Source: Verrucomicrobiia bacterium (lineage in GTDB: Bacteria; Verrucomicrobiota; Verrucomicrobiia; Verrucomicrobiales; Akkermansiaceae). From it: a stretch of 64,000 nt of DNA. Positions 1 through 12,771 of this stretch are shown here, piece by piece; positions within the stretch are counted from its first letter, which is position 1, and each line of letters opens with the position of its first letter. A model generated the notes under the pieces. It saw nothing but the letters and a program-made list of their open reading frames with translations. It had not been told where the DNA came from and ran no database searches. The stretch spans positions 62,001 through 126,000 of the forward strand of contig JAUIGV010000005.1 in NCBI GenBank assembly GCA_030432565.1. Direction: 5' to 3'. Both the position numbers and the translations under genes were made by a program.

Positions 1-1232
1 TATTTTTGGAAGAAGCGTTGGAATGAAATCTGGGCAATCGTGGTGCTAGGAGCCGTGATCTCGACTCCTTCCTTTGCTTCCACAATTTGGTGCAGGCCGA
101 GCTTCCAAGAACGGTCCGGCATCGGTCGCCCCGTGCTTTCGTCGATAATGACGATCTTACCCTCCTCGATGATGTAATGTGTTCCAAGGGTGAAAAATTC
201 CTGGGCCTCCAGTGCCAGCAAGATCATCTGGCGGCGACGATCGGGGCACCGCCAAAGAGGAACGTCGGGAAATTCATCTCCTTCTGCGATTTTGTCTTCG
301 CCGGAATCGGTCAGTGTCACCTCACGACGCCCCCTGTGCACCCTGTAGTCGATCTCAGGGCGGAGAAACTCCGCAACCTTCCAGGCACCCAGGCACGCCA
401 GCCGCAATTCTTCAGATTCGATTTTTTGGCTGATCAGAAGGGGCGTGACCGCCTCATCGATCAATCCATTGTCCGCCTCGTCAATCAAAGCCCTGAAAAG
501 CCCCCTCTGCGTCAGTCTCATACCACTCCCCGGGGCTTTAACAAACTTGCGAACATGCTGACGCGCTCCCGAACGTTCCCACTCGCCCAATTGCAGCCGG
601 TCGCGCAGGAAGTCGGCGGCGACCTCCTTGGCTGTCGTGTAGGTGACCTCAGCCTGATAACCCTCGCGCCGGTCTGCGGGTTCGGTCTTACCAATGACCG
701 AAGCAACAGAAAGCCCAAGCCGGGCGTAGAGCTTCTTCATCGTCAGCGCGTCCCGCTTGGCCAAATAGTCATTTGCCGTGATGACGTGAACAGGCTCGCC
801 CTTCCACGCTTCAAAGGAAGCAGCAAGAGCAATGGAAAGGGTCTTCCCTTCCCCCGTATCAATCTCTGCGAGATATCCATTTATCAGAGCCAACGCAGAT
901 AGCATCTGGACCCGATAAGGCGTCAGCCCCAACTCGCGACGAGCCGCTTCGCAAATTAGAGCGAGAACTTTGGGCGACGGAGAGGCATTCCCCGCAGCCT
1001 CCAATCGAGAGGCGGCGATAAGACGGTTGATTTCCTTGTCAGAGAGATCTGCAAGAGTTTCACGCTCGATCGCGGCAGCCTCAACCACCACCATCCAAGG
1101 CTTTAAAACCGAGCTTCGACGCTTCCACTTCCCGGCGATGCGCTTTGTCCAGAGATCCAGCCCACCAAGTTCCGGACCCGGTTTTTCCTGAAAAAACGAG
1201 TCTTGAAAACGGGTTGGCGCGGCGATCTGCAT
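1..1232 (-). CDS. Divergent SecA-like translocation ATPase, N-terminal part (cut by window edge)
   Basis: Reading the minus strand from the ATG at 1230-1232 gives 410 residues that run off the left edge. SecA hallmarks are in order: Walker A DTGEGKT at about 125-131, the HVITANDYLAKRDA segment at 149-162, a DEAD-type box with IDEADNGLIDEAVTPLLIS at about 250-268, and the preprotein cross-linking region ending in IIDESTGRPM and GLHQIVEAKEGVEI (about 362-391). The N-terminus differs from housekeeping SecA, being basic and Trp-rich, and part of the cross-linking domain is atypical. Only 14 bases separate it from the M50-HlyD gene upstream, so it is the last visible gene of the export operon. A core secA would not usually sit with HlyD and TolC genes, so I infer a dedicated accessory SecA. 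The C-terminal half, with motor domain 2 and any zinc finger, is outside the window. Confidence 0.9.
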   Translation of the reverse strand, partial: MQIAAPTRFQDSFFQEKPGPELGGLDLWTKRIAGKWKRRSSVLKPWMVVVEAAAIERETLADLSDKEINRLIAASRLEAAGNASPSPKVLALICEAARRELGLTPYRVQMLSALALINGYLAEIDTGEGKTLSIALAASFEAWKGEPVHVITANDYLAKRDALTMKKLYARLGLSVASVIGKTEPADRREGYQAEVTYTTAKEVAADFLRDRLQLGEWERSGARQHVRKFVKAPGSGMRLTQRGLFRALIDEADNGLIDEAVTPLLISQKIESEELRLACLGAWKVAEFLRPEIDYRVHRGRREVTLTDSGEDKIAEGDEFPDVPLWRCPDRRRQMILLALEAQEFFTLGTHYIIEEGKIVIIDESTGRPMPDRSWKLGLHQIVEAKEGVEITAPSTTIAQISFQRFFQK

Positions 1233-1246
1233 AGGAGTCAGCTGAA

Positions 1247-3391
1247 TTAAAGTTGATACTCGCGCTGGAAGAATTGTCTAATCGAGTGTCGCCACTGATT
1301 CAGGAGAGGCTTTTTCGGAAGAGCGAAACGGGCAATCCCCCGCTGTCCGTGTTGTAAAATAACACCTTTCGCTTCTTCGATTGTTCCGCGAACCTGGAAG
1401 TAAGGCTCGGTGGTCTTCTTTCCGCTCCCTTCCTCAGCCGCCACTCCCATCGACCCTCCACCAGCGACCCCCAAAGCCGCGCTGGGAAGATCCTCCTGCC
1501 CGGCAGGGATGGCATCGAGATTGGTCAGGCTCATATCCAGCCCTTCCTGGCCTCTGATTTTCAACTCGGAATCATCGAGAGATAGCCGCCCCGCATCCCG
1601 CTGATGAACCACCGCACTGAACACATAGCCATCCTCTCCCCGGACCATTCCAAGAGACTGCCCGCGCGGAACGACCGACCCCATAACTTCGTGCAGGTCG
1701 TCGGCTATCCATCGGCCTGCAACCGGCGCTCGAACCACAAGATTTTCAAGCTGGACCTTCAACGCGGCTTCGCGGGCGTCGAGTGCGGTGAGGAAAGCCC
1801 GGAGTCCGGCCAGCTGGGTCCCCTGTTCATTACGATCCTGCCTTAGGAGCAAATCCCCACGTTCCCGTTCGATACGAATCAGGTCCTTCTCCACTTCTAA
1901 TTCCTCGTTTTTCAAAAGGAGTAAGATCTGACCAGCCTCCACCTCTTCTCCGGAAGGAGTCACCAATTCCGCGATGCGTCCCGGACTGCTGGTATAGACA
2001 TTCTGGAAAGCGGAAGATTTCACCACGCCCTCCGCCCGAAAGTAGTAGGGCATCGGCACAAAAGCCAGAAAAGACAAAATGACCCCCAGAAAGAGGGCAA
2101 CGATTCCGAGTGCACGTGTTCGACGGTTCATAAGTTTGGGACTAAAAAATACATAGCGCAGTCCTTTCACAAAAGGAAGAATCCCCCAGACTACGCCGAA
2201 CAGGAGAGCCAATAGCAGCCCCAGAATCAGGAACTGTTTGGAAACGAAAATCAGGATTCCGATCATCAAAAGGAATCGGTAAGTCCAACTGGTAAAGAAA
2301 TAGAGGGTGAAACCGATCTGCTCGCGTCGGGATTTCGTTGGAATGGGGCCGGGGTCGATCTTGAAAATTTTCTTATTTACCCACCATGCCACCAGGGATT
2401 GTGAACGTCCTTGCAGATTGGGAGTCTCAAGGAGGTCACAGAGAATATGGTAACCATCAAATCGCAAAAGCGGATTAAGATTGAAAAGCAGTGCTCCAAT
2501 CGAAGCTGTGATCGCCACATTGTAAGCGACCCGCGAGGCCACTCCATCCGCTCCATCAGCCCAAATCTTTACCGCGACAGCGGCTATGAAGAGCTCAACT
2601 GCCATTCCCGCGATCCCGACAATGACGCGCTGATATTTCCGGGCGAATGCATAACAGGATGAGGCGTCGACGTAGGGAAGCGGATTAAAAACCAAAAGCA
2701 TCACCCCCATCTCAGGAACCTCCCGGCCATACCTTCGACAAGCATAGGCGTGTCCAAACTCGTGAAGCACCTTGGTGATGATAAGGCTCGCATAGAGGTA
2801 TGGGAGATTTGACCAACCGAGAATGGAACGGGAGGAATCCGAAAAACGTCCCCAGTTCTCGATCAGAGCCTGAAGGCCCCACGCAAAGACAATAAACCAG
2901 AGGATGGCACCGACCGGAGTGAATAGCCACGCGAAGAGAGAAAGAGTTCGACGTAAAAACGGATCCGGATTGATCAACGGGATCTTCAGAAAGAGAAGAC
3001 TGGAAATCCGCTGCTTGCGCTTCTGGGCATTCTCGCGGGCTTTGTTTTCTTCAAGCGCGCTGATGTCCGCGTTCTGATCACTTCGAAGAAGCCCCGATTG
3101 ATAAAGCTGGGAAAGCAACTGAATCACCTCTCCCTGCCCGGGAGAATCCACTGGATCGATTTCGAGAGCACGATCCCAGGCGTCCTGCACATTCTCGGCG
3201 TCCTCAAGATAACAAATAAAGCGGTAGGCCGCCGGTCGGATCCTGAAAAATCGATGACCTAATTTATCACAAACAACGTACCACGCCTCTCCCCGGAACA
3301 TCTGGCGGATCATTTCGACCCCTGGCAATAGCCTCACCTTGCTTCGGCTGACCCGATACCAGGATTCGTCAAATACCGTACGTTGTTTCAT
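1247..3391 (-). CDS. PqqD-like domain / M50 metalloprotease / HlyD adaptor fusion
   Basis: 714 residues. Residues about 10-105 resemble a PqqD-type winged helix, a fold known to bind peptide leaders. The middle is a multi-pass site-2 protease core with zinc motif HEFGH at 210-214 and the downstream Asp ligand in LLRFDGYH (D312), so it looks catalytically intact. Several hydrophobic segments follow, and from about 445 there is a HlyD/biotinyl-lipoyl adaptor with a coiled coil at about 500-545 and the split barrel after it (GRIAELVTPSGEEVEAGQ, then LVVRAPVAGRW). One chain would thus carry substrate recognition, an intramembrane protease and a periplasmic adaptor arm. It lies 18 bases downstream of the GAF-HlyD gene and 14 upstream of the SecA-like gene. 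Domain calls are from motif reading; PqqD is the least sure. Confidence 0.88.
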   Translation of the reverse strand: MKQRTVFDESWYRVSRSKVRLLPGVEMIRQMFRGEAWYVVCDKLGHRFFRIRPAAYRFICYLEDAENVQDAWDRALEIDPVDSPGQGEVIQLLSQLYQSGLLRSDQNADISALEENKARENAQKRKQRISSLLFLKIPLINPDPFLRRTLSLFAWLFTPVGAILWFIVFAWGLQALIENWGRFSDSSRSILGWSNLPYLYASLIITKVLHEFGHAYACRRYGREVPEMGVMLLVFNPLPYVDASSCYAFARKYQRVIVGIAGMAVELFIAAVAVKIWADGADGVASRVAYNVAITASIGALLFNLNPLLRFDGYHILCDLLETPNLQGRSQSLVAWWVNKKIFKIDPGPIPTKSRREQIGFTLYFFTSWTYRFLLMIGILIFVSKQFLILGLLLALLFGVVWGILPFVKGLRYVFFSPKLMNRRTRALGIVALFLGVILSFLAFVPMPYYFRAEGVVKSSAFQNVYTSSPGRIAELVTPSGEEVEAGQILLLLKNEELEVEKDLIRIERERGDLLLRQDRNEQGTQLAGLRAFLTALDAREAALKVQLENLVVRAPVAGRWIADDLHEVMGSVVPRGQSLGMVRGEDGYVFSAVVHQRDAGRLSLDDSELKIRGQEGLDMSLTNLDAIPAGQEDLPSAALGVAGGGSMGVAAEEGSGKKTTEPYFQVRGTIEEAKGVILQHGQRGIARFALPKKPLLNQWRHSIRQFFQREYQL

Positions 3392-3409
3392 AGCCGGGAA
3401 GATTTCCGG

Positions 3410-5179
3410 TTAGAACCAGAGTTTCATGCGGACAAATTCCCAGGTGCGATGAAGATAAACCCATGCCACCGAGCGTTTTCCAATGTCGACCTTACAGACG
3501 CCACTCATTCCCGGACGCCACCATGATTCCGGCTCGTCAGAAATATTAACCCGAACCCGGAACGTCGTGCCGGTTTCCTTCACCACGGCAACGGGTTCAT
3601 AGGAATCAAGCGAGACCTCGAATTTGTCTTCCGGTCGTGAGGTAAATGCCAGCTCTCCCGCCATGCCTTGCTCGAGAAAATGAATATCACGCTCGTCGAC
3701 CTGTAATTCTCCGTAAGTATCGCTGATCTCCACGATTCGCATGAGAATCTCGCCCACCTGGGTAGGCGAAGACAGTCGCTCCTTGAGGTCACCTTCCACG
3801 ATCACGCCATCAAAAGGCGCGCGAATCTCGGTACGATCGAGACGGTAATCCAAGACGGTCAGCTTGGCATCGGCCTGTTCTATCGCGAGTTGGGAAAGCT
3901 TCATTTGCGATAGATCACCCTCGGCTTCATAGCGCCGGGCATCTGAAAGGTTTCGATCCCGCTCAGCCCTGAGCTCGGTTTGCTGCATCACCAACTCACG
4001 CCGATCCAGAGTCACCAAAAGCTGGCCCTTCTTCACGGCGTCCCCCACGTTGACTTTTACGGTGTCGATGTAACCCGAAAACGGAGCGGTCAAATCGGCC
4101 GAAGCTTGAGTCCGGAGAAGAAACGGAGCTTTAACGGTATGAGTGATTGGAATGACACAACAAAGCGCGAACGCCAAAAGAAGAGTCAGTCCAGCCAACT
4201 TCCATCCGGTATGTCGATACCCCAAAAGAGAAGCAAACCGTCGCCGGACCGAACGCCAGACGCGTGAACCAATCCAGCCTGACTTGTCGTGCAGGGTCAC
4301 CAGTTGCGGACTTACCAAATCTAGCACGACCCGAAGGGCATCAACCCTCTCTTGTGAAATCCCCCCGGACTCCTGCGGATACTCCACTGTTACCGCTCCG
4401 TGAACTTCGCCATCTTTGCGAAGCGGTAGTGAGACGATCTGACAATTTCCATGGGCCTCCGAGAACGCCTTATGCTGGCGATTTATTTCAGCCCCTTGAA
4501 TGGCCGGCACACCAACCTCGCAATCTTGCTCGGCAGCTTCATCCATCGCACGGCCCAATGCTCCGGCTGTCTCGGTGTCATTTCGCATGCGCCCTCCGTG
4601 ATTGGTCGCGACCAATTCCATGAGCCCTTTCTTACGCCACCCGAGTGTCACCCGCATTGCGGCGAGCTCCGTCTCAAGCTCGTTACAGAGCCGGTTTGCC
4701 GCTTCTCCAAAATGCGCGGACTCACCAATGATGAGCCCCAAATCAACCACGCGCGAGATCTCGCCGAGGGATTTCTCCGAAGTTTCAGCTTTTCGCTGTG
4801 CCGAAAATGCGGTGACCGCAGCCTCCACGAATGCCCGCATTTGGGTCTGCTCGGTTTCCAAAATCGGAGTGTGGCGCGCGGAAACAAAAATAAAGCTCAT
4901 CTCCGTCCCAACAACATCCATGGGTTGAACCACCCAGTGAACTCCACCCTCTTCGATCGACTGCCCCCCGGCACCACCAGCCATGATCGCCTTGCGAACA
5001 CCCGGAGGAGCCGTCCTAAGATTGCTCCCCTCGCTCGAGCCGAACAGCTTTACGTTCCCGTCATCAACTTGAAGGGCAACACACTGGCTCAACTGCCACT
5101 GGCCGGCAACCGACTCAACCACCCTGCTCCAGAAGCCTGCAGGATCCGATCCACCTTGTAAAATTTCAGCCAGATTCAT
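3410..5179 (-). CDS. GAF-domain / HlyD membrane-fusion protein
   Basis: 589 residues. The N-terminal 300 or so look cytoplasmic: a first sensor-like domain at about 15-125 (VALQVDDGNVKLFG, then VVQPMDVVGTEMSFIFVSAR), a short coiled linker, and a GAF-like domain at about 140-295 (IVSLPLRKDGEVHGAVTVEY). A single membrane span sits at about 326-346, followed by a HlyD adaptor with lipoyl half-motifs (FSGYIDTVKVNVGDAVKKGQ and TEIRAPFDGVIVEGDL) and a C-terminal barrel. The layout, a sensor inside and an adaptor outside joined by one helix, suggests that a cytoplasmic signal controls assembly or activity of the exporter. The ATG overlaps the stop of the preceding adaptor gene as ATGA at 5176-5179, a sign of translational coupling. 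No membrane-pump domain is present. Confidence 0.87.
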   Translation of the reverse strand: MNLAEILQGGSDPAGFWSRVVESVAGQWQLSQCVALQVDDGNVKLFGSSEGSNLRTAPPGVRKAIMAGGAGGQSIEEGGVHWVVQPMDVVGTEMSFIFVSARHTPILETEQTQMRAFVEAAVTAFSAQRKAETSEKSLGEISRVVDLGLIIGESAHFGEAANRLCNELETELAAMRVTLGWRKKGLMELVATNHGGRMRNDTETAGALGRAMDEAAEQDCEVGVPAIQGAEINRQHKAFSEAHGNCQIVSLPLRKDGEVHGAVTVEYPQESGGISQERVDALRVVLDLVSPQLVTLHDKSGWIGSRVWRSVRRRFASLLGYRHTGWKLAGLTLLLAFALCCVIPITHTVKAPFLLRTQASADLTAPFSGYIDTVKVNVGDAVKKGQLLVTLDRRELVMQQTELRAERDRNLSDARRYEAEGDLSQMKLSQLAIEQADAKLTVLDYRLDRTEIRAPFDGVIVEGDLKERLSSPTQVGEILMRIVEISDTYGELQVDERDIHFLEQGMAGELAFTSRPEDKFEVSLDSYEPVAVVKETGTTFRVRVNISDEPESWWRPGMSGVCKVDIGKRSVAWVYLHRTWEFVRMKLWF

Positions 5180-5913
5180 TCGCCATCCTCCACTTCTGGA
5201 AGTTTCACCTTAACCCGAAGCCCGGGCTTAATCTTAAGCTTGCTGTTGTCAAAGTCGAACCTGACCCGGAACAGCCCGCTTCGCGAGTCGAGCTGCGGAT
5301 CGATAAACGCCAGAGTTGCCTTGGATTCCTTGATTTCTGGAAGCTCTGGAAAAAGAACCTGGGCCTCCATTCCTTTTTTTAGAATGGGTAAATGCTTGGT
5401 CGAGAGAAAGAACACCAGTTTCATTTTTGAAGCATCGATGATCTCGAAAAGAGGCTCGACCCGACCAATGGCCTCACCCGGATCCTTCAAACGATAAACG
5501 ACTGTTCCTCCAACGGGAGCTTTGATCGACCGTTGATCAACTGCAAACTGAGCCATTTCCTGCTCCACTTGCAACCTCTTGAGATCCGCTTCTTTCTCTA
5601 AAAGCTCGGACTTCTTTTGAATTTGCTTCCCGTAGAGTTCCCGCGCCGTCTTTGCGTCCTCGGCTGCTTTCGCAATCATGAAACCAAGGCGCTTCACTTC
5701 AAGCTGCTCACGGGTTGAAAACAGAGTTGCGAGAGTGGCACCCGCTTCCACAATATCGCCCTCTTCGACGGAGACGCTTTCAACGATCTCCTCAACCGGA
5801 GAACTAATAGTGATCCTTGCTGCGGGTTGACAGGTTCCCTCCACCCAAACCTGGGCGAAAGAAGCGGAGAGACAGCCCATGAGACTGCCGATAGTGATCA
5901 AAGTTCGATTCAC
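5176..5913 (-). CDS. Periplasmic adaptor protein (HlyD/RND-MFP type)
   Basis: 245 residues starting at GTG 5911-5913, with a cleavable signal peptide ending near ASFAQV (residue 21). The lipoyl halves (ITISSPVEEIVESVSVEEGD and RSIKAPVGGTVVYRLKDPGE) flank a short helical hairpin, and a beta-barrel domain follows (LEVKRLG to FRVRFDFDNSKLKIKPGLRV). It is the third adaptor-type protein of the operon and the only one without a membrane anchor. It lies 47 bases downstream of the TolC-like gene and overlaps the GAF-HlyD gene by four bases. Inferred role: periplasmic ring linking the inner-membrane HlyD fusions to the outer-membrane channel. Confidence 0.88.
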   Translation of the reverse strand: MNRTLITIGSLMGCLSASFAQVWVEGTCQPAARITISSPVEEIVESVSVEEGDIVEAGATLATLFSTREQLEVKRLGFMIAKAAEDAKTARELYGKQIQKKSELLEKEADLKRLQVEQEMAQFAVDQRSIKAPVGGTVVYRLKDPGEAIGRVEPLFEIIDASKMKLVFFLSTKHLPILKKGMEAQVLFPELPEIKESKATLAFIDPQLDSRSGLFRVRFDFDNSKLKIKPGLRVKVKLPEVEDGE

Positions 5914-5960
5914 AGCTCGTTGTTAGGGTAGTGGATTGAAAAAATGCCCGAGAAGAGGCC

Positions 5961-7520
5961 TTACTCTTTCTCTTTTGCGCGGGTGATCATCACTTCCACC
6001 TCGGCATTGGAGATCCCCATGCGATCAAAAATCTGTCCGGCAGCGAGCCAGACCGCGATCACCGACTTACTCAAGGCCGCTTCACTGGTGACAAGATTGA
6101 CCTGGGCATCTCCAAGAATCTGTTGCTGTTCGACGACCCGGTAAAAGTCTCCCTCCCCGGCATCAAATAAATCCTGTTCCTGCTTGAGCCTCTGCGTAGC
6201 GAGTTCGACCGCTTTTTTTGCAGTCTCGATCCGTTGCTTGGCAGCATCAACCCGGGTACAAGCTGTGTGCACTTCGAGCGAAATCGTTCGTTTCGCCTTC
6301 GCAAGCTCCAGCTGGGCCTGCCGAACCTGTGCCTCGGCAGCTTCCATGGCAGCATCAGCGCCGTCTTCACCAAGCGGCATCTTGAGGCTGAGGCCCAGCG
6401 ACCATTCGGTTCCCTGGGATCTGGCAGCCTCGTCAAAAGCACCATCAGCCTCAGCATCGAGGCCATAAAGACCAGCCGATCCCGTCACATTTAGCTGGGC
6501 TTTCCCCGCATCTTTCGCACGAAGAACATTCAATTTCGCAGTCTCAACGACATGATTGTAGTAAACGAGATCCAATCTGCGGCTTTGCCCATATTCGATC
6601 AGCTCACGCTTACCATTGACGGTCGCCCCCGAAAAAAAGGTAGAGATGGGCTTGAACCTGGTCTTGCCTTCAAGATCCGGCTCACGGTCGATCAGCGCGA
6701 AAAGGGTATTGACCCTCTCGATCTTGTCGGCAGCGCTGGTGATGTATTGGTCCTGACGCTGGTAAAGAGCGAGTTCTGCGGTGGTGACATCGGTGACAAG
6801 TCCCTCGTTGCTTTCAAGCAGCTCCTTGTTGCGCTTCAGCATCTGCTCGGCCAGCTTGATATTCTCACTGTGAACGGCAAGCACACGATCGGCGGTCACA
6901 ATATCGGTGTAGCGGCTGGCCACCTCGGCGACCAGATTCATCGCTTTCACCCGGGTCAGGACCTCTTGGGCGGCCCCGCGGCGCTTGGCAATGTTTAAGG
7001 CTGCGAGGTTGGCATCCTCACCAAAGCCTCGAAGAAGTGGCTGGGTGACTGTAATTCCTGTAAAAGTCTCATACTCAGGAGAAAACAGAGCATTCGCTGA
7101 AGTCCGGTTCAGTGTATTGCTCAGTCTGGAAAATCTTGATCCAACCTCCAGAACCGTTCCGGTGGTGTACTTCTTTTTGACGCCAACTCTCGCCGTGAAG
7201 TTCTCATCGACAAAAATTCGCTCGTCGTTTCCGGGCAGCTGAACTCCGCCAACCGCGATAAACTCCCTTGTGTTTTGCGGCTTTGAGCGGTCCTCATATC
7301 GCGCCAAAGCCTCCAATCCCCAGCCGAATTCGGCCAATTCCCGCCGAACCTGGGCGTCACTAATCTTCACGCTCTCAAGCTCTCCCTTAAATTCCGGGTT
7401 TTCGCGAAGGGCACGGCGAACTGAAGAATAAATACTCATTAGCTCGGTTTCCTGAGCTTGAACAATCGATGTTAAAAGAAGACTGAGACCAATTGCGGTC
7501 AAACGAGGTAGTAATTTCAT
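5961..7520 (-). CDS. TolC-family outer membrane efflux/secretion protein
   Basis: 519 residues with a signal peptide (cleavage after IVQAQ, about residue 23). Long amphipathic helices carry the two TolC repeats (about 170-260 and 385-480), separated by beta-rich strands such as FTGITVTQPLLRGFGEDANL, the usual OEP signature. The second repeat is rich in Ala, Glu, Lys and Gln (AEAQVRQAQLELAKAKR). It is the first gene of the operon that continues with adaptor, GAF-HlyD, M50-HlyD and SecA-like genes, so the promoter should lie in 7521-7755. The expected role is a trimeric channel-tunnel across the outer membrane and periplasm. Confidence 0.93.
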   Translation of the reverse strand: MKLLPRLTAIGLSLLLTSIVQAQETELMSIYSSVRRALRENPEFKGELESVKISDAQVRRELAEFGWGLEALARYEDRSKPQNTREFIAVGGVQLPGNDERIFVDENFTARVGVKKKYTTGTVLEVGSRFSRLSNTLNRTSANALFSPEYETFTGITVTQPLLRGFGEDANLAALNIAKRRGAAQEVLTRVKAMNLVAEVASRYTDIVTADRVLAVHSENIKLAEQMLKRNKELLESNEGLVTDVTTAELALYQRQDQYITSAADKIERVNTLFALIDREPDLEGKTRFKPISTFFSGATVNGKRELIEYGQSRRLDLVYYNHVVETAKLNVLRAKDAGKAQLNVTGSAGLYGLDAEADGAFDEAARSQGTEWSLGLSLKMPLGEDGADAAMEAAEAQVRQAQLELAKAKRTISLEVHTACTRVDAAKQRIETAKKAVELATQRLKQEQDLFDAGEGDFYRVVEQQQILGDAQVNLVTSEAALSKSVIAVWLAAGQIFDRMGISNAEVEVMITRAKEKE

Positions 7521-7755: not shown

Positions 7756-8931
7756 TCACTCTTGCTTCAAGAGCTGCCAGCAATACCACTGCATCCGCGG
7801 CAGATGAAAAGGCCCCTTGAAATGATTTCCCTTCGCCGGTGAAGAAACCCGCCCATCGCGGTGCAGATAGCCAAACCATTCTCCAAATTCCTTATCATGG
7901 AAGTGCCGGTGGGCATAATCGTGCACCATTCTGTGCCATTCTGCATACTTCACATCCCCTGTCAGCTGATAGGCCAGCAAGGTCGCGATGATCGCTTCGC
8001 ATTGCGGCCACCAAAACTTCATGTCGTGCCAGTATTCCTGGACCGGCTTCCCATAAACATCACGAAAGTAGATGATTCCACCATGCTCTTGATCCCATCC
8101 CCGCTCCCACATGTAATCCAGCATTCGACACCCCAGGTCCATCAGTTCCGGATCGTTGTCCCTCCGCTTGGCCTCAGCCAAAATAAACCAGGCTCCTTCG
8201 ATGGCATGCCCTGGATTGAGTGTCCGTGCATCAATGTGGTCCACCACCTCTCCATTCGGCCCGACTTGCTCCATCACACAGCGGATATCATCCTTCACAA
8301 AATTACTAATTTTTTCGATCAAGCAGTCGATCACTTCACTCGAACAATCCCCGCCGCTGTCTCGAAGAATCTGGCCGACTTGTAGAAAGATCATCGGCTC
8401 CCCCAACCCCTTCATCGTCCGCTCATTGGTCCATTTGGGTTTCCCGGGCGCCACCGATCCGTCGAGATACCCGAGACACTTGTGAAAAAGTGCATTCGCC
8501 CGCTCCAACCAAATCATTTCGCCGGAAGCCTTCCCAAAGGACGCGAAAGCCATAATCGTGAAGGCCTCCGAATAAAAATACCGCCTTTTCCGAAGAGCTT
8601 TCCCTTCACGGGTCACCAGGAAAAACATCCGCCCGTCTTGATCAAAGCAGTGGTCCTGCAGGAACTTGACTCCACTCCGTGAAGTCTCAAGCCACTCCGC
8701 CTTTTTCTCCACCGTGTTATAAAGCGTCGCCATCATCCAGGCAAAGCGCCCCTGCAGCCACACGGCCTTGTCATCATCGATTAATTTTCCGTTGCGATCA
8801 CGCATCGACAGATACCCCCCAAATTCTTCATCGACTATCTCCGGCAACCAAAATGGCAAAGTATCATCGAGGAGACTCGCTCGATAAAAATCCCGCAGTT
8901 CATGCAACTCTTTCCTGGAATATCTGCTCAT
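7756..8931 (-). CDS. N-acylglucosamine 2-epimerase (AGE/RenBP family)
   Basis: 391 residues, the usual length for the family, which folds as an (alpha/alpha)6 barrel. Family segments visible are WLQGRFAWMMATLYN near 58, RYFYSEAFTIMAFASFG near 117, NPGHAIEGAWFILAEA near 240, EYWHDMKFWWPQCEAI near 308 and HRHFHDKEFGEWFGYLHRDG near 350; the last two hold the His residues used in proton transfer in characterised members. It follows the mutarotase-symporter gene with a four-base overlap (8928-8931). In that setting it most likely turns N-acetylmannosamine released by the aldolase into N-acetylglucosamine, taking the role of NanE as in Bacteroides. A cellobiose or mannose epimerase is possible by fold alone but fits the operon less well. 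Confidence 0.88.
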   Translation of the reverse strand: MSRYSRKELHELRDFYRASLLDDTLPFWLPEIVDEEFGGYLSMRDRNGKLIDDDKAVWLQGRFAWMMATLYNTVEKKAEWLETSRSGVKFLQDHCFDQDGRMFFLVTREGKALRKRRYFYSEAFTIMAFASFGKASGEMIWLERANALFHKCLGYLDGSVAPGKPKWTNERTMKGLGEPMIFLQVGQILRDSGGDCSSEVIDCLIEKISNFVKDDIRCVMEQVGPNGEVVDHIDARTLNPGHAIEGAWFILAEAKRRDNDPELMDLGCRMLDYMWERGWDQEHGGIIYFRDVYGKPVQEYWHDMKFWWPQCEAIIATLLAYQLTGDVKYAEWHRMVHDYAHRHFHDKEFGEWFGYLHRDGRVSSPAKGNHFKGPFHLPRMQWYCWQLLKQE

Positions 8932-11555
8932 GATTTTTTTTGCGTCCAGATTGTCAAACCGTCCACTTCATTATCAGCCGCCTTGAAAACGATCCCCAAA
9001 ATCAACCCCAAGATCAGAGTGGATAGAAACCCAACTGCTCCGTATAGCAAGGGCATCACATCAATTATTCCGAACTCGTTCAAGAAATGAACAGCCGTCA
9101 CCATGACCACCCCGCCGATCAAGGCCAACAATCCCGCGAACCCGTTGGGTCGTTTTACAAAAATCCCTAACGCAAACAACCCACCGAGTGGTCCGAGAGC
9201 GAATCCAATAAAGCGATTGAACAGGAGAAAAACCTCATCAGTCTTGATCATCGCCAGATAGCTGGAGGCTCCAATTCCAACAACACCCAAACCAATGACC
9301 ACGAGCTTCGCCACCTTCAGCTTCTGCAAGTCGCTACTTCCGGGCCTTAAAAGCCTCCCGTAAATGTCCGTTGTAAAAGCCGTAGCCACGGAATTCAGCG
9401 AACTGGAAATGGTCGATTGAGCTGCCGCAAACACACCCGCAATAATCACCCCTGCAACACCAACAGGCAGGTTCTGCATAATAAAGAAAGGCAAGACACT
9501 GTCCTTTGCAGGCAATGCCGGATCCATCAAATCCGGCCTATCCTGATAAAAGACAAACAAAGCGGTCCCCAGACCGAAAAAAATTGCCGAACCGACGAGC
9601 ACCATCCCGATATTCATCCACAAGGATCTGGCCGCTTCCTTCCGGGACGCAGTCGTGACATAGCGCTGCACGACATCCTGTCCGGAGGTGTAGGATGGAA
9701 GGTTTGCAAACATGAAGGCAATGAAGATTACAAACCCCGATTGCGAACTCCTGCCTATCGAAAGATCCCCCGGGTTCCAACTTGCAGTAAGCCCCTTGCT
9801 CTGCTCGCCCATAGCCAGAACAATCGCCCCCACCCCTCCTTCAACCTTGGAGACCACAAGGCCAAAGCAGAGCAAAGCCCCGCCAATCAGGACCAGAGCC
9901 TGAATGGCATCGGTCCAAACCACCGCTTCAATCCCGCCCATCACAGTGTAAATCACACACAGGATGCCGATGACTCCGATTGCGACCAAGATATTGATGC
10001 TGGTGACACTTGAAAGCGCAAGCGCCGGCAGGTAAAGGACGATTGCCACCCGTCCGACGTGAAATAAAATGAAAGTCATACTTCCTATCACCCGCGTTGC
10101 CACATTGAAGCGCAGTTCTAGATATTCGTATGCGGTCGTCACGTTCAAGCGCCGGTAAAAAGGCAGATAAAACATCACCACCAATGGAACAATCAACAGG
10201 ATTGGCCACTGCCCGATGTAGCCATTCCAGTTGGTCGCGTATGCGGTTCCAGGAACTGCCATGAAGGTAATCGCTGACAACATCGTCGCGAAAATTGACA
10301 ATCCGGCCACCCAGAAGGGAATCCTCTGACCACCACGAAAGTAGGCTTCGGTGGAAGACGCCGCTTCTCTCATCATGAAGCGGTAACCGATCGCGACCAT
10401 TCCCAGAAGATAAGCGATCACAACAACCCAGTTTACAAAGCCAAAGCTGAGTTGGGAGCCTCTGACTTCGCCGATCAATACCTGCGGCGATCTCACCCCC
10501 GGCTTGATTTCGCCGGTTGGTAAAATCACTTTCCCCTCCCAAAACACCACCTGGGTGGTCACCGGAGGCAAAGTCCCCTCCGTCGGCAAACTGCCCACTT
10601 CAGACCATCGATCCGTAACGACGTTGTAAGCAAGAACAGAAGGAGGAAAACCCGGATGCTCCATCCCCTGGCCCTTCAACTCTGGGCGGGCCTCAACCTG
10701 ATCCCTCAGAAACTCCACGGTCACTCCACCGAGCATAAGAAGAGAACTCGCCCCAACCGGAATCGCCACAGAAGGAGCTGCCGATCGCCCAACCGGCAAG
10801 TCCCGCAACCTCCGCCAATTCCCTTGCTTGACATCCAGCTCCCAACAATCCCGAAGCCAATCAAGATCAAAAATTCGCTCGCTGTCCTCCCCATCGGAAT
10901 CGGCAAAATCTCGCCCGCCAAAAAGGTAAAACTTGTTCCCTGTTACTCCTCCGACCGGATACACTCTGCCCCTGCCACCCTCCGGCCAACCCAGTGCCTT
11001 CCACTCCACAAACGTTGGGTCAGGCAAGGTCATTTGATAAAACTCCTTGGTCATCGTCATTCCGTCCCCCCCCGCCCCCACGATCACGTCGCCATTCATC
11101 TCGACCGCCACCCCCTCGGCCATCGGGGCGGGAAGCGCCCCAATTCTCTCGATCACCACGTTCCCATTCTTTATCGACACTGAAAGTACGTCATCCTTCG
11201 CTCCGGAAGCGTTTTTCCCTCCCATGAAAAGACACGTCCCGACATCGCGACTTGTGGACATTCCGTAACCCATCTTCGCTGGAAGCTTTGTCTTTGATTT
11301 CCGCCACTCTCCTTTCTTTGTTAAAGGCAGAATAAAAACATCATCATAGAAGACTTTCTCGCCTCCCTCCCATGGCCGCTTTTCAGGGAAATTGGCTCCT
11401 CCTGCCACCACCAAGAAATCCACGCCGTCATCGATGACAATCCCGGCATAAACACCCGCAAAGCCCTCTCTGTCCGGCAAATCCGGCAAGCGATCCCAGG
11501 TCAGAGCCCCAAAGGCAGAAGCCCACCCCAGAAGCCAATAAAAAATGATCCTCAT
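8928..11555 (-). CDS. Kelch-type sialic acid mutarotase fused to sodium:solute symporter
   Basis: 875 residues from the ATG at 11553-11555, chosen because it is followed by a signal peptide and lies two bases after the nanA stop; an upstream in-frame ATG would overlap nanA deeply. Residues about 20-370 form kelch repeats of the cyclically permuted mutarotase type (LVVAGGANFPEKRPW, YLFGGRDF, LLMLGGV), as in NanM, which speeds interconversion of N-acetylneuraminate anomers. From about 385 a 13-helix SSS-family transporter follows (FRGGQRIPFWVAGLSIFATM, then FMAVPGTAYATNWNGYIGQW). The predicted job is anomer conversion in the periplasm coupled to Na+-driven uptake. Neighbours are the aldolase and epimerase in one operon. 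Confidence 0.9.
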   Translation of the reverse strand: MRIIFYWLLGWASAFGALTWDRLPDLPDREGFAGVYAGIVIDDGVDFLVVAGGANFPEKRPWEGGEKVFYDDVFILPLTKKGEWRKSKTKLPAKMGYGMSTSRDVGTCLFMGGKNASGAKDDVLSVSIKNGNVVIERIGALPAPMAEGVAVEMNGDVIVGAGGDGMTMTKEFYQMTLPDPTFVEWKALGWPEGGRGRVYPVGGVTGNKFYLFGGRDFADSDGEDSERIFDLDWLRDCWELDVKQGNWRRLRDLPVGRSAAPSVAIPVGASSLLMLGGVTVEFLRDQVEARPELKGQGMEHPGFPPSVLAYNVVTDRWSEVGSLPTEGTLPPVTTQVVFWEGKVILPTGEIKPGVRSPQVLIGEVRGSQLSFGFVNWVVVIAYLLGMVAIGYRFMMREAASSTEAYFRGGQRIPFWVAGLSIFATMLSAITFMAVPGTAYATNWNGYIGQWPILLIVPLVVMFYLPFYRRLNVTTAYEYLELRFNVATRVIGSMTFILFHVGRVAIVLYLPALALSSVTSINILVAIGVIGILCVIYTVMGGIEAVVWTDAIQALVLIGGALLCFGLVVSKVEGGVGAIVLAMGEQSKGLTASWNPGDLSIGRSSQSGFVIFIAFMFANLPSYTSGQDVVQRYVTTASRKEAARSLWMNIGMVLVGSAIFFGLGTALFVFYQDRPDLMDPALPAKDSVLPFFIMQNLPVGVAGVIIAGVFAAAQSTISSSLNSVATAFTTDIYGRLLRPGSSDLQKLKVAKLVVIGLGVVGIGASSYLAMIKTDEVFLLFNRFIGFALGPLGGLFALGIFVKRPNGFAGLLALIGGVVMVTAVHFLNEFGIIDVMPLLYGAVGFLSTLILGLILGIVFKAADNEVDGLTIWTQKKS

Positions 11556-11557
11556 CG

Positions 11558-12490
11558 CTAAACGACAACACTGCGATCCTGCCCGACCCACTCGAACCAT
11601 CCCAAATCCTCCAGGCGTTTCCGCAAGGCCGCAATTTGCTCCTCGCCGGCCGGCTCGATCGGACGACGAACAGGACCACAATCAATTCCAACCATCTGCA
11701 TCATTGCTTTGAGCGAAGCCCGTCCGCAGGTCTCGAACATCGCTCCAATCATTTCGAGTGCCCTCTGCTGCCAGAGCCGCGCCATTTCAAAGTCCCCTCC
11801 GGACAGGGCTTTCCTGACCTGATCGTAGATTGGGGCCGCATAATTGTAAGTGCTACCAACCGCCGCTTGAAATCCCTGCGCCGCTGCCATCAGATACGCT
11901 TCGTCTGATCCCGCCATGAACTCCAGCCCCGGTCCCACCTTTTGTAAAAGTGACAAATGATACAAACTCCCGCCATCCGAGTACTTGATCCCGCAGAACG
12001 TCGGCAAACGATCCATCGAACGCCCCGTCAGCTTGATCGGATCCAGATTTACTCCTGAGAGAAGCGGAATGTGGTAGTAGTAGAAAGGCGTCTTCGGAGC
12101 CGCTTCCACAAGTGGAACCAACCCCTCCACCAATTCCTTTTCACTCCCCACTTTGAAATACCCTGTCGGCGTTGCTGAAACGGCGTCAGCACCAATTGAC
12201 TCGGCATGGCCTGCCAACTCTGCCGCAGCCTTTAAGCTGTTGTGCCCGACTTGCACCAATGTTTTCATCCTCCCCTTCGCGGCAGAGACATAAGCCTCAG
12301 CAACAGCCCGGCGCTCCTCATCTGTGAGAGACATCCCTTCACCGGTGCTTCCGGCAATGTAAATCCCGGTAATCCCTCGCGATTCCAAGTAATCAACCAC
12401 CCGCGGCACGAGCTCTAGCTTTAGTTCACTGCTGCGGTCCATGGGGGTCACCACCGCTGCAACCAGACCCCGGAGATTTAAAGGATTCAT
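11558..12490 (-). CDS. nanA: N-acetylneuraminate lyase
   Basis: 310 residues from the ATG at 12488-12490; a GTG start further upstream would add 58 residues with no family similarity. It is a class I aldolase of the DHDPS/NAL barrel family. The keto-acid binding loop is GSTGEG, the tyrosine block YYYHIPLLSGV is typical of the neuraminate branch, and the Schiff-base lysine is in FCGIKYSD. It cleaves N-acetylneuraminate to pyruvate and N-acetylmannosamine in the cytosol. It is the first gene of the sialic acid operon, followed after two bases by the mutarotase-symporter. No sialidase, NagA or NagB gene lies in the window, so those steps must be encoded elsewhere. Confidence 0.93.
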   Translation of the reverse strand: MNPLNLRGLVAAVVTPMDRSSELKLELVPRVVDYLESRGITGIYIAGSTGEGMSLTDEERRAVAEAYVSAAKGRMKTLVQVGHNSLKAAAELAGHAESIGADAVSATPTGYFKVGSEKELVEGLVPLVEAAPKTPFYYYHIPLLSGVNLDPIKLTGRSMDRLPTFCGIKYSDGGSLYHLSLLQKVGPGLEFMAGSDEAYLMAAAQGFQAAVGSTYNYAAPIYDQVRKALSGGDFEMARLWQQRALEMIGAMFETCGRASLKAMMQMVGIDCGPVRRPIEPAGEEQIAALRKRLEDLGWFEWVGQDRSVVV

Positions 12491-12771
12491 ATCGTTTGGA
12501 GAGATTAGATCATGCCTCCCCGCCGTGGAAAGAAAGTTCCAAAACTCTGGCCTAAGACTCAAACCAGTCCGTTTGGCTGCGATCTCCCTATCAATACGAT
12601 CCGACCCACCACAACTGGATGACATCCAAGACGGTGATTTCCCGGAGTTGGTCACTCTCTCCACCCCTGGCTTTTAGAGGATCCTGCTCCGCAAGGCCCG
12701 GAAAGGAAAGCCCGGTAAATCCCAATCACCTCGCAACGAACGGTCACAGGAGGACGACGACCGGCGACGCC

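Follow-up and report, generated by a model that had tools for sequence, protein, structure and literature searches.

The five-gene block considered here lies at one end of a 64,000-nucleotide stretch of DNA (referred to below as the window) from a Verrucomicrobiia bacterium of the family Akkermansiaceae (GenBank assembly GCA_030432565.1; 5.9 Mb, 97% complete). The window covers C55:62001-126000, where C55 denotes contig JAUIGV010000005.1; coordinates without a contig prefix are those of the window. The block encodes a SecA-like ATPase, a fused M50 protease-adaptor, two further HlyD-type proteins, and a TolC-like channel, and we propose that it exports giant proteins such as the one encoded next to it. 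It occupies positions 3 to 7520 of the minus strand, with the TolC gene transcribed first and the SecA-like gene last. An earlier reading of the window, made from its letters alone (the first-pass annotation), had described five genes packed with small gaps and an overlap, and the measured spacings bear this out (47, -4 [an overlap], 18, and 14 bp in the order TolC, HlyD, GAF-HlyD, M50-HlyD, SecA). The genes, their key motifs, and the next gene to the left are as follows.

3..1232, minus strand, running on to the left of the window (whole gene, C55:61250-63232): short secondary SecA (SecA2-like), 660 amino acids (aa)
840..860, minus strand: Walker A motif DTGEGKT, SecA residues 125-131 (sequence; conservation in 66 SecA proteins)
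471..482, minus strand: DEAD box, SecA residues 251-254 (sequence; conservation in 66 SecA proteins)
1247..3391, minus strand: membrane protease-adaptor with PqqD/RRE-like, M50, and HlyD-type parts, 714 aa (domains and models)
3062..3376, minus strand: PqqD/RRE-like winged-helix domain, proposed reader of the LEPR leader (profile matches and predicted structure)
2750..2764, minus strand: HEFGH zinc motif of the M50 protease, residues 210-214 (alignment of 18 sequences)
2450..2476, minus strand: NPLLRFDGY, second metal-ligand motif of the M50 protease, residues 306-314 (alignment of 18 sequences)
3410..5179, minus strand: GAF-HlyD protein, 589 aa (HlyD_D23, 7.3e-20; GAF marginal)
5176..5913, minus strand: HlyD-type periplasmic adaptor with a hydrophobic, signal-like N-terminus, 245 aa (HlyD_D23)
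5961..7520, minus strand: TolC-like outer-membrane channel with a hydrophobic, signal-like N-terminus, 519 aa (OEP, 2.7e-35)
C55:3786-60374, minus strand: giant LEPR-XLL frame, proposed cargo, next gene to the left and outside the window, 18,862 aa

The part of the SecA-like protein inside the window matches SecA_DEAD (2.9e-70) and SecA_PP_bind (8.2e-21). The whole protein (here called SecA2) consists of nucleotide-binding domain 1, the preprotein cross-linking domain, and nucleotide-binding domain 2, and lacks both the wing-scaffold domain (SecA_SW) and SEC-C. The Walker A and DEAD motifs named in the first-pass annotation are both present, and their residues T126-K130 and D251, E252, and D254 are conserved in at least 95% of 66 aligned SecA proteins, the window's included. 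The source genome has two SecA genes. The second, a copy that the first-pass annotation had suggested looking for, lies at C68; its full-length product (1058 aa) has both the wing-scaffold domain and SEC-C, and in an alignment, 252 C-terminal residues of this product extend past the end of the short form. Without these two domains, SecA2 cannot work exactly like the housekeeping SecA, and its coupling must differ. It also scores far under the cut-offs of the SecA2 families (458/1085, 410/930, 400/725, and 356/1100 bits). The genome contains one SecY and thus no second, dedicated copy. As the first-pass annotation had noted for the block, no ABC or RND pump is encoded by the five genes, nor by the giant gene to their left. 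Elsewhere in the genome, a search with the HlyB model, the one type I ABC model used, gave 58 matches, none over the cut-off (best, 366 versus 725.6 bits).

The 714-aa protein joins three parts. Its Peptidase_M50 match lies exactly at the Pfam cut-off (27.2 bits), and the catalytic motifs are intact: H210, E211, and H214 (HExxH) and N306, P307, D312, and G313 (NPxxxxDG) are invariant in all 18 aligned sequences. This part is related to daptide_HExxH (6.6e-47, below that model's cut-off) and also resembles epipeptide proteases, again below cut-off. The HlyD module is weak by sequence, and its predicted model (mean predicted local distance difference test [pLDDT] score, 79) matches MexA/MacA adaptors, with a best Foldseek E value of 5.9e-14. 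The three HlyD modules claimed by the first-pass annotation are therefore found, two by sequence and this one through the model. The PqqD part that it had named was not found by Pfam in the window's protein by itself and emerges from relatives and from the fold: 52 of 80 aligned M50-HlyD sequences match Pfam PqqD at E<=0.1 (best, 1.3e-9), and the N-terminal ~105 residues model as a PqqD/RRE winged helix with a pLDDT of 92. Compared with known structures, the model gave Z scores of 9.9, 9.5, and 9.4 for the leader-bound lasso-peptide B1 structures 6jx3, 5v1u, and 5v1v and 8.7 for the PqqD structure 5sxy. The elements corresponding to strand 3 and helix 3 are more conserved than the rest of the domain (mean entropy, 1.23 versus 1.86 bits elsewhere; permutation P of ~0.01). 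In peptide natural-product enzymes, PqqD/RRE domains bind leader peptides, and it is along strand 3 and helix 3 that RRE domains do so.

Among the remaining three proteins, the GAF-HlyD protein and the 245-aa adaptor each match HlyD_D23 at ~7e-20. The GAF domain reported by the first-pass annotation is visible just below the cut-off (22.2 versus 22.4 bits). The TolC-like protein matches OEP at 2.7e-35. The most hydrophobic 11 residues at the N-termini of the HlyD adaptor and TolC have Kyte-Doolittle means of 2.0 and 2.3, respectively.

Left of position 1, where the first-pass annotation had advised extending the sequence, the SecA2 gene is completed at 660 aa, and the next gene is a giant open frame. 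A pump gene directly to the left of the window is thereby ruled out. The giant frame runs on the minus strand from C55:60374 to 3786 and encodes 18,862 aa (1.96 MDa). Its product is very acidic (2,437 D+E versus 913 K+R; computed isoelectric point of 4.05, probably the program's floor) and contains two cysteines. Residues 24-45 match the LEPR-XLL model NF012209 (LEPR-8K) at 29.8 bits (cut-off, 17), the sole LEPR match at E<=0.01 in the source genome. Toward its C-terminal end, the protein carries RTX repeats (1.6e-11). Pfam searches with five pieces of the protein, which omit ~530 of its 18,862 residues, found RTX repeats alone, and a pattern search for regular internal repeats revealed no even spacing. 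The protein has no ordinary signal peptide: the highest 11-residue Kyte-Doolittle mean in its first 80 residues is 1.3. Between secA2 and the giant gene lie 875 bp (C55:60375-61249) in which no gene was recognized; the corresponding open-frame gaps in the relatives L071 and L068 measure ~40 and ~180 bp. (Here and below, G and L numbers denote genomes and loci, respectively.)

A set of 53 N-termini from 59 LEPR loci has the motif [F/Y]x[V/L/I/F]E-x-LEPR-[I/L/V]-LL-S-[A/G]-[D/A]-P, preceded by a basic stretch (18.5% K+R) and followed by an acidic one (2.4% K+R and 18.9% D+E). In a sample of the phylum (n = 387), the longest open frames holding the motif encode 20,466, 19,216, 18,984, 18,870, 18,189, and 17,103 aa; many other LEPR frames there are short, often at contig ends.

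The block is widely conserved. A scan of a collection of genomes from 84,980 species with the M50-HlyD alignment identified at least 570 relatives, of which the best 80 loci were analyzed. By the titles of their records, these come from Verrucomicrobia, Lentisphaerae, Kiritimatiellae, Planctomycetota (mostly Phycisphaerae), Elusimicrobia, and Nitrospirota, as well as from desulfobacterial groups, Spirochaetales, Gamma- and Betaproteobacteria, Magnetococcales, Chlorobiaceae, and Fibrobacter. A SecA of the short kind is present in 71 of the 80 loci, and in 69 of these 71, no more than 500 bp separates it from the M50 gene, so that the neighborhood of SecA and M50-HlyD is more than chance. The full five-gene set was found in 36 loci, many loci ending at contig ends, and the exact order of the window, which the first-pass annotation had proposed to look for across Verrucomicrobia and Planctomycetes, was found in 29 loci. 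In a motif scan, 2 of the 80 loci contained an ABC-type open reading frame and 78 contained none.

LEPR frames accompany this block. Within the examined flanks, one was found in 15 of the 80 loci (0 in shuffled proteins). In 8 of 15 relatives (G000, G003, G004, G014, G020, G026, G038, and G052), <1 kb separates the motif from the SecA2 gene. Of the 24 genomes in the phylum sample with both M50 and LEPR, 12 have the motif no more than 10 kb from the M50 gene. In L217, L142, and L129, the LEPR frame is divergent from the exporter genes rather than behind secA2. Some genomes contain many LEPR matches (14 in G053, 10 in G048, and 22 in G480), with two SecA2 genes in each of G053 and G048; one exporter may thus serve many giant proteins.

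The presence of exporter and LEPR proteins in the same genomes was examined in several sets. Of 58 relatives, the source genome included, 15 contain SecA2 (13 whole genes and 2 fragments) and 19 have a LEPR match at E<=0.01. LEPR was found in 15/15 genomes with SecA2 and in 4/43 without it (P = 1.3e-10). The difference persists when whole SecA2 genes alone are counted (13/13 versus 6/45; P = 8.6e-9) and when the source genome is removed (14/14 versus 4/43; P = 4.0e-10). With M50 as the marker, 15 genomes have both, 3 have M50 only, 4 have LEPR only, and 36 have neither (P = 8e-8); M50 was counted at E<1e-50 (18 genomes; 21 at E<=0.001, where the weak partial matches of G021, G026, and G039 are the ones excluded). 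SecA2 and the housekeeping SecA were separated by eye, from span and frame length. G026 and G027 were scored as SecA2 positive from fragments alone, G047 as negative though its contig ends inside the M50 gene, and G014 as positive with an internal stop; its secA2 (L069, 8979-10970) is broken by one in-frame TAG, reflecting either an assembly error or decay. G039 has five LEPR matches, no M50 or SecA2, and no SecA of any kind at E<=1e-20; its assembly is therefore probably incomplete.

The same association was observed in larger and more distant samples. In the phylum sample, with M50 at E<=1e-40 in 80 genomes and LEPR in 29, 24 genomes have both, 56 M50 only, 5 LEPR only, and 302 neither (P = 8.7e-14); at E<=1e-180 for M50, the counts are 23, 3, 6, and 355 (P = 1.8e-28). 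All 22 genomes of this sample with LEPR at E<=5e-4 have an M50 match. The five with LEPR and no M50 (G035, G174, G378, G081, and G115) have E values of 9.6e-4 to 0.009 and frames of 138 to 636 aa; these matches appear fortuitous and are included in the counts above. A sample of 185 genomes from a different class, that of G439 (locus L109, titled Cocleimonas; the class is presumably Gammaproteobacteria), gave 14 with both, 10 with M50 only, 2 with LEPR only, and 159 with neither (P = 5.5e-13). Outside Verrucomicrobia proper, 40 of 48 locus-bearing genomes have LEPR at E<=0.01 and 33 at E<=5e-4, 7 of the 40 positives being weaker than the latter threshold. This set was taken from the 80 loci after dropping L156, which comes from the same isolate as L149; one of its members, G442, shares its LEPR positions with G427 of the phylum sample, so that a single genome is probably represented in both. 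None of 14 control genomes has a LEPR match. Within a single genus (g1; n = 27), M50 and LEPR occur together in five genomes, LEPR alone in one, and a strong M50 match alone in none. Such patchy joint presence argues against common descent as the sole explanation of the link.

The link is with the form of the locus that includes SecA, as is evident from loci and genomes in which that form is missing or the M50 match is weak. Six loci from a looser M50-HlyD subgroup in Verrucomicrobia (L212, L213, L214, L215, L221, and L222) have no SecA2 in the examined stretch, and the genomes concerned show no LEPR match. These loci have GAF-HlyD and/or HlyD neighbors and probably represent a related exporter that differs in cargo or energy source. 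Likewise, where the best M50 match is weaker than 1e-160, LEPR was found in 1 of 52 phylum-sample genomes (G234, with an M50 gene divided among contigs). Taken together, the association between the exporter and LEPR proteins is strong, and the cargo that the first-pass annotation had called unknown now has a strong candidate in the giant LEPR-XLL protein beside the operon.

We consider it fairly probable that the block is a secretion system for giant proteins with an N-terminal LEPR-XLL leader, its cargo here being the adjacent 18,862-residue protein, which would be read by the RRE-like domain, trimmed by the M50 protease, driven by SecA2, and released through HlyD and TolC. In such a mechanism, the PqqD/RRE-fold domain of the membrane protease-adaptor would bind the LEPR leader at the inner membrane, and SecA2 would thread the unfolded, nearly cysteine-free chain across that membrane by ATP hydrolysis, through either SecYEG or the membrane part of the M50 protein. 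The M50 site may then cut off the leader. Since the HlyD parts would join TolC, the chain would leave to the outside of the cell, where its RTX repeats could fold on calcium. An N-terminal signal would suit so long a chain because export could begin before synthesis ends. Whether this amounts to a distinct secretion class, shared by many groups, is in our judgment evenly balanced; in that case, a stripped-down SecA would drive megadalton proteins along one continuous path through the RRE-protease-HlyD unit and TolC, with LEPR-XLL as the export signal of bacterial giant proteins and with a reader whose fold occurs in peptide natural-product enzymes.

Several observations weigh against this proposal. 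The flanks hold a LEPR frame in just 15 of the 80 loci, many flanks ending at contig ends. The giant gene lies 875 bp from secA2 and may therefore have its own promoter; a promoter scan of this gap gave about as many hits as in shuffled sequence. The P values quoted above were all computed as if related genomes were independent. No LEPR match was found in G342 or G242, both of which have the locus with SecA, or in G490, which has a strong M50 match; 8 of the 48 locus-bearing genomes outside Verrucomicrobia proper lack LEPR, and G558 has LEPR (1.4e-5) without M50. Motifs below the threshold beside L108, L119, and L138 suggest that the LEPR model misses some members. With regard to the reader domain, winged helices of GdmN and NovN gave Z scores of 9.1 to 10.3, GdmN (10.3) lying slightly above the RREs; the Foldseek E values of the RRE fold match are weak (0.02); and an RRE-type fold, here a predicted one, does not prove leader binding. 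Finally, SecA2 lacks the wing-scaffold domain that the housekeeping SecA uses.

The last point bears on how the chain might cross the envelope. SecA normally works together with SecYEG, and the genome has a single SecY with none dedicated to the block; SecA2, moreover, retains both nucleotide-binding folds and the preprotein domain. These facts would fit export in two steps, in which SecA2 and the ordinary SecYEG deliver the giant to the periplasm, HlyD and TolC serve only to cross or anchor at the outer membrane, and the M50/RRE protein is a leader peptidase outside the channel. We regard this alternative as rather unlikely, given that the fusion of adaptor and protease couples the latter to the outlet, that the giant has no ordinary signal peptide (1.3 versus 2.0 and 2.3 for HlyD and TolC), and that SecA2 is without the wing-scaffold domain. 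A motor other than SecA2 appears improbable. Under that alternative, SecA2 would act on the giant in the cytoplasm as an unfoldase or chaperone without driving its export, and an ABC exporter encoded elsewhere would power the HlyD and TolC parts. The genome does have ABC exporters of ~600 aa (matches occur in the 14 control genomes, too), but none exceeds the HlyB cut-off, and it is SecA that stays beside the M50 gene in 71 of 80 loci, compared with an ABC-type frame in 2.

It is very improbable that the adaptor-protease-TolC set exports a small peptide or drug and that SecA and the giant are mere neighbors. PqqD-like domains, M50 proteases, and HlyD also occur in peptide natural-product systems, and the likeness of the M50 part to daptide and epipeptide proteases (all below cut-off) points the same way; against this, LEPR proteins track SecA-containing loci through a patchy set of genomes and are missing where an M50-HlyD locus has no SecA. 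The idea that this SecA, with its clear homology, is the genome's housekeeping secA is refuted: the full-length protein with wing-scaffold and SEC-C is encoded at C68, and the short form accompanies the operon in many bacterial groups.

The gene set itself has been described. Kamneva, Poudel, and Ward (2015; PMC4452313) reported secondary SecA_DEAD proteins beside genes with HlyD, M50, GAF, and, in some cases, OEP domains, noted the loss of the wing-scaffold domain, proposed SecA as the ATPase replacing an ABC protein, and suggested the M50 protein as a possible pore. The corresponding proposal of the first-pass annotation, that SecA replaces an ABC protein, is therefore not new. Those authors called the role of the locus completely unknown, and the available part of their text names no cargo and does not contain the word "giant." The present locus agrees with theirs in its second SecA without wing-scaffold, its M50, GAF (marginal here), HlyD, and OEP neighbors, and the lack of an ABC gene. 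What is new here is the identification of LEPR-XLL giants as proposed cargo, the PqqD/RRE-type candidate reader domain, and the co-occurrence tests.

Genome surveys have tallied giant bacterial proteins for years, and the LEPR family (NF012209) includes others that combine an N-terminal LEPR-XLL with C-terminal RTX, as the giant here does. Published examples are a Vibrio protein of ~8000 aa with LEPR-XLL and RTX (PMC10868602) and a LEPR-XLL protein of Limnohabitans among lake transcripts (PMC9611531). Neither of these sources, nor the giant-protein and giant-gene papers PMC11573180, PMC10066038, PMC5352709, and PMC6461901, mentions SecA or HlyD in the parts available, and the available text of PMC5177795 contains no match to export terms. 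No dedicated export route for giants is named in the available parts of PMC11573180, PMC10066038, PMC5352709, and PMC10868602. A review of tripartite exporters (PMC8277102) names ABC, RND, and MFS pumps, with no mention of Kamneva in the part covered. In the literature searched, as far as its texts were available and with few subscription journals or preprints among them, no link of a LEPR-XLL or giant cargo, or of a reader domain, to the locus was found.

Comparison with other known systems shows partial likenesses. The block shares HlyD adaptors, a TolC channel, and a very long RTX-bearing proposed cargo with type I secretion (HlyB-HlyD-TolC), and differs from it in having a SecA-like ATPase and an M50 protease instead of an ABC transporter. 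Type I cargo carries its signal at the C-terminus, whereas the candidate signal here is N-terminal. As with the accessory SecA2 of Gram-positive bacteria and mycobacteria, a second SecA would serve a few chosen cargoes, but this one scores far below the family cut-offs and sits with HlyD and TolC genes. An RRE (PqqD-type) fold together with an intramembrane metalloprotease recalls the maturation of ribosomally synthesized and posttranslationally modified peptides (daptide and YydH/LiaK); unlike in those systems, the protease is fused to an HlyD adaptor, and a protein of megadalton size, rather than a peptide, is the proposed "precursor."

Next to the operon in the window, an apparent cluster for sialic-acid use lies on the minus strand (7756-12664). 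It includes genes of the N-acylglucosamine 2-epimerase and DHDPS/N-acetylneuraminate lyase families and a 917-aa frame joining a NanM-like Kelch epimerase to a sodium:solute symporter, a fusion that appears unusual.

Our analysis joins a published machine without a known cargo to the giant proteins and so yields a testable system composed of leader, reader, protease site, motor, and outlet, which would span about a dozen bacterial groups as named in sequence records. If the proposal is correct, a SecA-driven route would join the ABC-, RND-, and MFS-driven tripartite exporters, and the LEPR-XLL leader might serve as an N-terminal tag for the export of very long, repetitive proteins.

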